Assembly (NCBI RefSeq): GCF_016783915.1
Contig: NZ_JADHVT010000004.1
Span: forward strand, 1 to 64,000
Source of the DNA: Acidovorax sp.
GTDB lineage: Bacteria; Pseudomonadota; Gammaproteobacteria; Burkholderiales; Burkholderiaceae_C
Direction: 5' to 3'
Length of the DNA: 64,000 nucleotides
Shown one piece after another: positions 8,381 to 11,860 of this stretch (the stretch's first letter is position 1; every line of letters begins with the position of its first letter). Under the pieces are notes generated by a model. That model saw only the letters and a program-made list of their open reading frames with translations, ran no database searches and was not told the origin of the DNA. The position numbers and the translations under genes are program-made.

Positions 8381-8971
8381 TCACCGGCGATCCACCAGCG
8401 CATGCGCAATCGTGCCCAGGTCCACATACTCCAGCTCGCTGCCCACAGGCACGCCGCGCGCGAGCCGCGTGACGTGCAACCCACGGCTCTTGAGTGCCTC
8501 GCTGATCACATGCGCAGTCGCCTCCCCCTCGGCATTGAAGTTGGTGGCCAGAATCACCTCCTGGACGGTGCCATCCGTGGCGCGCTCCATGAGCTTGTGC
8601 AGGCCGATCTCCTTGGGACCGACACCATCGAGCGGACTGAGCCGCCCCATCAACACAAAGTACAGCCCCTTGAAGGCGCCGGTGCGCTCCAGCGCCGACT
8701 GGTCAGCCGGCGTCTCGACCACACACAGCCGCGTTGCATCGCGGTCAGGGTCTAGACAGGTGCTGCACACTTCCGCCTCGGTGAACGTATGGCAACGCGC
8801 ACAGTGGTGCACGGTGCCCACTGCCTCCGAGAGCGCCCGCGACAGCGCCAGCGCCCCTTCGCGATCATGCTGCAGCAAATGAAACGCCATGCGCTGCGCA
8901 GACTTCACCCCCACTCCCGGCAAGCGGCGCAGCGCCTGGATCAGAACGTCGAGGGAGTTGGTGGTGGACAT
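8381..8971 (-). CDS. recR: Recombination mediator RecR
   Basis: [24 protein letters not shown]; CxxC zinc motifs; Toprim domain; 196 aa. Confidence 0.97.
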
Positions 8972-9218: not shown

Positions 9219-9551
9219 TCAGAAAGGGAATTTCATGCCGCCGGGGAGGCCTGGCATGCCTTGGGTGAGCTTGCCCATCTTCTCCGAAGAAGTCTCCTCC
9301 GCCTTTCGCACCGCCGCATTGAACGCAGCCGCCACCAGATCTTCCAGCATGTCCTTGTCTTCGGCCAGCAGGCTCGGGTCGATGGTGATGCGCTTTACAT
9401 CGTGCTTGCAGGTCATGACCACCTTCACCAGACCCGCGCCCGATTCACCCTCCACCTCGATGAAAGCCAGTTCGTCCTGGGCCTTCTTGAGGTTGTCCTG
9501 CATCGCCTGGGCTTGCTTCATGAGGCCGGCGAGTTGTCCTTTGTTGAACAT
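9219..9551 (-). CDS. YbaB/EbfC nucleoid-associated protein
   Basis: [55 protein letters not shown], 110 aa, between dnaX and recR. Confidence 0.95.
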
Positions 9552-9780: not shown

Positions 9781-11760
9781 TCACGCGGGTTTGATGCTGC
9801 CCGGCACGATTCTCGCGCCGTAGTCACGCATCAGCGATTGCACGAAGGGGTCGTTGTGCACGATTTCTTCCGCGCGGCGTTGGCGCTCGGCGGCGGCGGC
9901 GGCGTTGCGACGGGCAGGGCTGTCGATGACCACGCCCACTTCCACGCTGATCTGGGTCGCATGGCCCGCAGCTTCAAGGGCCGCACGCAGGCGCTCGCGC
10001 GCCGTGGGCTGGTTGAGCGATTCGCGCTCGACGCGCAACAGCCAGTGACCGCCGTCGCGCGCCACCAGCTGCGACTGCAGGGCCAGTTCGCGCACCAGCG
10101 CCGTGATAGCCTCTGCTGCCACCAGTTGCTGCACCGTGGCATGCCAGACGTCCCCCTCTTCGGTGGGGGTGTAGCGGGCAGATACCGGGGTCGGGGCAGA
10201 CAGTGGAAGCGGCTGCAACCGCTCGCCGGGCTCGGGGGACTCACGCACCGGGATTGCTACATATTCAGGAGCATTGTGTGCTTTGAATGATTGCGCTACA
10301 CCGGGATTTTGCTCAAACCTCTCGGTGGTGCGTACCGGCAACGCCGTGGCAGCGGGCGCAGCCGCAGTGGTCACAGTACCGGGCTCGTCAGAACCTGGCC
10401 ATGGGGGTGGCTCAGTCTCGTTGAACGACTCTGATGGATGGTCTCCGGCGCCAGAAGATGCGGTGCCTGCAGCCACTGCTGGAACTGGGGCCGTGACTGC
10501 AGGCGCTGGGGCCGCAGACGGAACTTGCGGGGCAGAAACTACCGCAGCCGCTACACGCCCGGGCACTGCCGAAGCACCTGCAGAGATGGTGCCTGAAGTG
10601 GGCGTTTCAGCCCGCGTCAGAGTTTTTTTTTCAGCCGGTCCGCCAACCCCACCCTGGGGCTTAAAGGCCAGCAGGCGCAGCAGCACCATGGTCAGAGCCG
10701 CATACTCATCCGGCGCCAGGCCCAATTCGCCGCGCCCGTGCAGGCACAGACTGTAGAGCAACTGCGTTTCATCGGCGGGCATCAGTGCAGACAGGCGGGC
10801 TGTCTCGGCTGCCTCGGGGTCATCGGCATCCACGGCCCCCGCCATCTGCGGCACGGCCTGGAACACGGCCATGCGCTGCAGCACGGCACTCATCTCTTCG
10901 AGCGTGGAGGCGGCAGACAGCCCGTTCATGCGCAGCGTGTCCGAGGTCTCCACCACGGTCTTCCCGTCACCCAGGGCGAGCGCTTCGATGAGCCGGAACA
11001 CGTAGGAGCGGTCCACCGCACCCAGCATCTGGCGCACACCGGCTTCCTGCAGCTGACCGCTGCCAAACGCAATGGCCTGGTCGGTGAGCGAGAGCGCATC
11101 GCGCATGGAGCCCCGCGCAGCGCGCGACAGCAAACGCAGCGCCTGCGGCTCGGCAGGCACGTTCTCATTGGCCAGTACGCGGGTCAGGTGTTCCAGCACC
11201 GTTTCGGGGGCCATGGGACGCAAGTTGAACTGAAGACAGCGGCTCAGCACCGTGACCGGCACCTTCTGCGGGTCGGTCGTGGCCAGTACAAACTTGAGGT
11301 ATTCGGGCGGTTCTTCCAGCGTCTTGAGCATGGCGTTGAACGCCGTGTTGGTCAGCATGTGCACTTCGTCGATCATGAAGACCTTGAAGCGCCCCTGCAC
11401 CGGCTTGTAGACCGCCTGCTCCAGCAGGCTCTGCACTTCGTCCACGCCCCGGTTGGAGGCCGCGTCCAGCTCGGTGTAGTCCACAAAGCGGCCGCTGTCG
11501 ATGTCAGTGCAGGCCTGGCACACGCCGCAGGGCGTAGCTGTGATGCCGCCATTGCCGTCCGCACCCTGGCAGTTGAGCGACTTGGCCAGGATGCGCGACA
11601 CCGTGGTCTTGCCCACGCCGCGCGTACCGGTAAAAAGGTAGGCGTGGTGCAGGCGCTGCTGGGTCAGCGCATTCGACAAGGCCTGGACCACGTGTTCCTG
11701 CCCCACCATCTCGGTGAAATTGCGGGGACGGTACTTGCGGGCGAGCACGAGGTAGGACAT
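9781..11760 (-). CDS. dnaX: DNA polymerase III subunits tau/gamma
   Basis: MSYLVLARKYRPRNFTEMVGQEHVVQALSNAL...GTRGVGKTT; contains A9 tract at 10623-10631. Confidence 0.96.
   Translation of the reverse strand: MSYLVLARKYRPRNFTEMVGQEHVVQALSNALTQQRLHHAYLFTGTRGVGKTTVSRILAKSLNCQGADGNGGITATPCGVCQACTDIDSGRFVDYTELDAASNRGVDEVQSLLEQAVYKPVQGRFKVFMIDEVHMLTNTAFNAMLKTLEEPPEYLKFVLATTDPQKVPVTVLSRCLQFNLRPMAPETVLEHLTRVLANENVPAEPQALRLLSRAARGSMRDALSLTDQAIAFGSGQLQEAGVRQMLGAVDRSYVFRLIEALALGDGKTVVETSDTLRMNGLSAASTLEEMSAVLQRMAVFQAVPQMAGAVDADDPEAAETARLSALMPADETQLLYSLCLHGRGELGLAPDEYAALTMVLLRLLAFKPQGGVGGPAEKKTLTRAETPTSGTISAGASAVPGRVAAAVVSAPQVPSAAPAPAVTAPVPAVAAGTASSGAGDHPSESFNETEPPPWPGSDEPGTVTTAAAPAATALPVRTTERFEQNPGVAQSFKAHNAPEYVAIPVRESPEPGERLQPLPLSAPTPVSARYTPTEEGDVWHATVQQLVAAEAITALVRELALQSQLVARDGGHWLLRVERESLNQPTARERLRAALEAAGHATQISVEVGVVIDSPARRNAAAAAERQRRAEEIVHNDPFVQSLMRDYGARIVPGSIKPA
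10255..10297 (-). repeat. 43-bp two-hairpin repeat, copy in dnaX
   Basis: AGCGCAATCATTCAAAGCACACAATGCTCCTGAATATGTAGCA (minus strand). Confidence 0.6.
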
Positions 11761-11860
11761 GCGGTCGATTCTACGGGCTGGGCCATGCGCCCCTGGCGCC
11801 GCCAGGGCAAACAAAACAGCCACTGAAAAATCAGGGCCTTCATCCGACGTACAATCGGCG

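Follow-up and report, generated by a model that had tools for sequence, protein, structure and literature searches.

How a single dnaX gene might supply both the full-length tau subunit of the clamp loader and a short gamma subunit is the question raised by a run of nine A's (A9) in the dnaX gene of an Acidovorax sp., located in a stretch of 64,000 nucleotides analysed here as the window. The gene is followed on the same strand by ybaB/ebfC and recR (Table 1). Its frame is open upstream as far as a GTG at 11823, and full-length tau is 659 aa and 70.1 kDa when the ATG of MSYLVLARK is taken as the start.

Reading of the minus strand at the site (GCT GAA AAA AAA ACT CTG ACG CGG GCT GAA) confirmed the A9 and the immediate stops in both other frames that had been noticed in a preliminary description, and the product lengths and frame readings given there proved exact on retranslation. 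Conceptual translation after deletion of one A from the tract yields a 380-aa product (41.2 kDa) ending in EKKL; with one A inserted, or with a -1 shift by the ribosome, the product is 384 aa long (41.5 kDa) and ends in EKKNSDAG. The tract is situated at 57% of dnaX, directly past domain III, which ends at aa 365 according to Pfam. The short products end just beyond this domain, as had been proposed, and thus would be gamma-like. The zero frame past the tract remains open to aa 659, and the zero-frame stop that characterizes reversed dnaX genes was not present there.

Table 1 Features of the dnaX region in the window.
Feature	Position	Strand	Basis
dnaX CDS, tau 659 aa	9781..11760	minus	ORF list and Pfam DnaX domains; MSYLVLARK start common to relatives
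A9 slippage tract (putative)	10623..10631	minus	Sequence reading
Codons GAA AAA AAA ACT CTG (EKKTL)	10618..10632	minus	Codon alignment, invariant in 30/30 Acidovorax loci
TGA met when one A is lost (or two are gained), 380-aa product	10617..10619	minus	
TGA met after gain of one A or -1 ribosomal shift, 384-aa product	10607..10609	minus	
DnaX domain III (PF12169), aa 238-365, kept in short product	10666..11049	minus	Pfam
tau domain V (alpha-binding, PF12170), aa 534-654, missing from short product	9799..10161	minus	Pfam
GGGC/GCCC small hairpin, present, not conserved	10600..10613	minus	
ybaB/ebfC, next gene downstream of dnaX	9219..9551	minus	PF02575
recR, gene after ybaB/ebfC	8381..8971	minus	RecR Pfam domains

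We evaluated whether the tract could be a chance run. In many bacteria, A/T runs inside genes are avoided at a length of nine (PMC1088944). A pattern search of the whole genome (4.95 Mb, 238 contigs) detected eight A9 runs, among which the dnaX run was the only one located mid-gene on the sense strand. A9 was present in all 30 Acidovorax dnaX loci. A synonymous change breaking the tract in close relatives had been named beforehand as a result that would refute slippage; none was found, as the codon alignment showed GAA AAA AAA ACT CTG identical codon for codon in every locus. These five were the only invariant codons of the domain III-V linker within the genus; in the long ORFs of the window, GAA accounts for 43% of Glu codons, AAA for 28% of Lys codons, and ACT for 9% of Thr codons. 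The single mid-gene sense run in the genome, its presence in 30/30 Acidovorax loci, and its presence in 74 of 130 genera, described below, indicate that the A9 is not due to chance. Another in-frame A9 was observed at G000:C47:34669-34677 (L268 position 1501), in the early part of a long open frame rich in repeats (MMLAWLKKKW).

To cover the Acidovorax family, dnaX was located in one genome per genus, and the site region was tabulated for 130 genera. Exactly A9 in the same phase was found in 74 genera, A10 in one, A8 in one, and A_AAA_AAG in three; the other 51 had no run of A6 or longer. Tract length was thus exactly nine in 74 of the 76 genera with A8-A10. Among the A9 genera, the tract was located 6-29 codons downstream of the point where the AFKP segment closing domain III begins, and its position moved with linker length while its composition stayed constant in a linker otherwise hypervariable in both sequence and length. 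The Lys codons of the tract were always AAA. The following codon varied (ACT, ACA, AGC, AGT, ACG, or ACC); its only constant base was the initial A, which completes the run of nine. EKK(T/S)L was kept as a peptide across genera. The zero frame stayed open beyond the tract in all 74.

A9 was not found in 20 other families of the order, one of which had an A8 in a different phase. Among about 68 families of other orders, A9 or A10 with close stops in both frames was sporadic (L386, L393, and L409); these three, from other orders of the class, are possible independent slippage sites. A reversed dnaX was observed in L411 (G400, another order of the class), where a zero-frame stop directly follows an A11 and the C-terminal part of tau is open in the frame gained by one added A.

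The A9 was strongly clustered (9 changes vs 50 for shuffled labels) on a gene tree calculated from a 108-residue segment (103 columns), which was poorly resolved and used for clustering only. A large group of about 44 genera was nearly all without A9, and two of the A_AAA_AAG genera were placed among A9 genera. Since the tract is absent from approximately 50 genera of the family, the A9 route to gamma is not universal in the family; genera of this type (e.g. L212-L245) either do without gamma or reach it by another route.

The off-frame stops were compared with a null in which the downstream codons of each gene were shuffled 300 times (n = 73 genera). In 66/73 genera, both stops lay no more than about 6 codons away, vs 1.5 expected (maximum 5 in 300 shuffles), although such counts are non-independent and overstate the independent evidence because the genera share ancestry. 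The insertion-frame (-1) stop was located within about 6 codons in 68 of 73 genera (14.9 expected), and the deletion-frame stop one codon past the tract in 63 of 73 (1.4 expected); within 3 codons, the latter was found in 71 of the 74 A9 genera. It was TGA, TAG, or TAA, in 15 different spellings. When CTG came right after the tract codons, the next base was A in 59/59 cases, and when CTA came there, the next base was A or G in 5/5, each combination producing an off-frame stop. CTG elsewhere in the linker was followed by A in only 7/92 cases. Amino-acid constraint would not couple CTG or CTA with the following base, and therefore the deletion frame itself is under selection. Judging from this coupling, what is maintained in the deletion frame is the stop, and no amino acid accounts for it. 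Shared ancestry is least able to explain away the coupled changes CTG-A and CTA-A/G.

Selection on this stop bears directly on the choice between the two routes that the preliminary description had left side by side, slippage and a -1 ribosomal shift. In the second, ribosomes would produce the 384-aa gamma by programmed -1 frameshifting on A_AAA_AAA, and the deletion-frame stop would be there by accident or as a backup. All A9 genera have A_AAA_AAA in phase, and the frequent -1 stop agrees with this route; in the window, it is the TGA at 10607-10609. However, -1 frameshifting uses one alternative frame, whereas slippage on A9 uses both, and -1 frameshifting explains neither the deletion-frame stop at 63/73 vs 1.4 with its 59/59 CTG-A coupling nor the retention of exactly nine A's, since A_AAA_AAG needs six. 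Selection on the deletion-frame stop thus leads us to prefer RNA-polymerase slippage over -1 shifting alone.

Shifting by ribosomes probably does occur in this family, because three genera, L149 (G159), L209 (G090), and L246 (G144), carry A_AAA_AAG in place of the A9, with a -1 stop 1 codon (L209, L246) or 3 codons (L149) away. Their other-frame stop is located at 8 codons in L149 and at 39 and 41 codons in L209 and L246. The placement of two of the three heptamer genera among A9 genera in the tree suggests switches between recoding mechanisms. The Acidovorax site itself has A_AAA_AAA followed by ACT in place of this heptamer, and in E. coli ribosomes shift less readily on A_AAA_AAA than on A_AAA_AAG (PMC5009743).

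Stimulators of ribosomal shifting were also searched for. A conserved Shine-Dalgarno (SD)-like stimulator was rejected, as 62 of the 74 A9 genera had no match of at least 4 bases about 10 nt upstream; the sequence upstream of the tract varied within Acidovorax. Downstream folding gave z = -3.3 in the window and a mean z of -0.6 across 74 genera, in a weak test whose E. coli control also reached only -0.6. The GGGC/GCCC hairpin noted earlier is present at 10613-10600, but all four of its pairs form in only 3/30 Acidovorax loci, leaving a role for it unsupported, and no conserved downstream hairpin was evident, z being near background in this weak test. No match to the Rfam dnaX element was found. 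tRNA-Lys(CUU) was considered as a predictor of site type and rejected, as tRNA-Lys content did not strictly track site type over nine genomes (BLAST and ARAGORN): the Acidovorax genome has tRNA-Lys UUU and CUU, G141 with A9 had only UUU among those found, and G159 with A_AAA_AAG had both. Overall, we consider it unlikely that -1 shifting is the programmed source of gamma at this site. Some gamma may nevertheless be made by ribosomes, because A_AAA_AAA inside A9 is a possible -1 site and the -1 stop is conserved.

A different reading would make the tract a matter of its peptide or its DNA: it would be kept for Lys-Lys or as a DNA or promoter element for ybaB-recR, and the stops would be 'ambush' stops limiting the damage of unavoidable slippage. 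Conservation of EKK(T/S)L as a peptide fits this, stops would limit junk peptide, and A tracts can act in promoters, which would allow such a role here. However, the Lys codons of the tract are always AAA while only the first A of the variable next codon is constant, three genera swap the tract for A_AAA_AAG in the same linker, and about 50 genera have no tract despite a conserved domain III. We regard this reading as improbable. Homopolymeric runs mutate by strand slippage, and a phase-variable tract toggling dnaX between tau and gamma-only states by replication slippage was also considered. The zero frame open past the tract in all 74 A9 genera and a length of exactly nine in 74/76 argue against such toggling. 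tau is essential in E. coli and, by analogy, would be expected to be essential here. We give phase variation almost no credence.

We propose, with a probability of roughly three in four, that the A9 is a programmed RNA-polymerase slippage site of the Thermus type and the main route to gamma. The comparison across genera strongly supports the earlier suggestion of a gamma-like product made by slippage on A9. During transcription of dnaX, the nascent A9 would re-align on the template, yielding mRNAs with 8, 9, 10, 11, or more A's. Messages with A9 or A9+3n would be translated to full-length tau. Messages short of one A or with two extra would reach the stop one codon past the tract, and those with one extra the stop a few codons past it, so that off-frame messages would encode the 380- or 384-aa gamma. 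This protein would keep the AAA+, lid, and domain III regions and be without the linker and the alpha-binding domain V, and the single dnaX gene would supply both clamp-loader subunits. The sequences themselves show the tract, both off-frame stops, the conservation of these features with selection on the stops, and the arrangement of domains. From them we infer that slippage occurs and that it is mainly RNA polymerase, and not the ribosome, that slips; a gamma:tau ratio, about 1:1 in the Thermus type, and a function of gamma would be predicted on the same footing.

For the family as a whole, we lean toward a history in which dozens of genera around Acidovorax make gamma by Thermus-like slippage on an old A9, and some lineages have swapped it for an E. 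coli-type heptamer or lost the site. If true, these genera would provide a natural set of changeovers between two mechanisms of recoding that lead to one outcome. This type of slippage is already known from Thermus; what the present group would add is its lineage-wide conservation and the probable switches of mechanism in neighbours. No report of this site in Acidovorax, Comamonadaceae, or Burkholderiales was found in the literature searched, with most subscription papers outside the search. For dnaX genes with a single frame, Thermus has so far been the main case of gamma made by slippage. A proteobacterial clade that is mesophilic, can be cultivated in part, carries the same signature, and has heptamer or site-less neighbours would allow one to ask why lineages turn to RNA polymerase or to the ribosome to make one product, and whether they need gamma. 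Selection on both off-frame stops also offers a sequence criterion by which transcriptional slippage and -1 frameshifting can be distinguished where shifting truncates the product, a situation that Baranov et al. 2005 (PMC1088944) described as difficult to treat by comparative analysis.

We compared the Acidovorax site with known systems. Caulobacter gamma arises by proteolysis of tau, as cited in PMC5009743; two DnaX forms come from one gene there, as predicted for Acidovorax, but the Caulobacter route has no recoding site. Reversed dnaX genes, in which tau needs the shift, occur in Chlorobi and others (PMC3711429). They share a poly-A site in dnaX and two products with the Acidovorax gene, but have a zero-frame stop after the tract, whereas Acidovorax tau is unshifted. 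The -1 shift in E. coli dnaX concerns the same gene, the same kind of short product, an A-rich in-phase heptamer, and a nearby -1 stop, and the GeneTack dnaX logo of this type includes Neisseria (PMC3711429). Acidovorax differs in that its heptamer is A_AAA_AAA, embedded in A9, and not A_AAA_AAG. It has no SD-like stimulator, a conserved stem-loop was not seen, and a second close stop is located in the opposite frame, where the E. coli stop is about 11 codons away. In Thermus thermophilus, gamma is made by transcriptional slippage (Larsen et al. 2000, as related in PMC1088944 and PMC5009743), and the same two accounts describe an A9, stops in both frames, and two tRNA-Lys. Acidovorax belongs to a proteobacterial lineage, its site lies 57% through the gene as opposed to about seven-eighths in Thermus, and slippage in it is deduced from a sequence signature. 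The two genes otherwise share a sense-strand A9, a single open frame for tau, and stops close by in each of the other frames, and both genomes have two lysine tRNAs.
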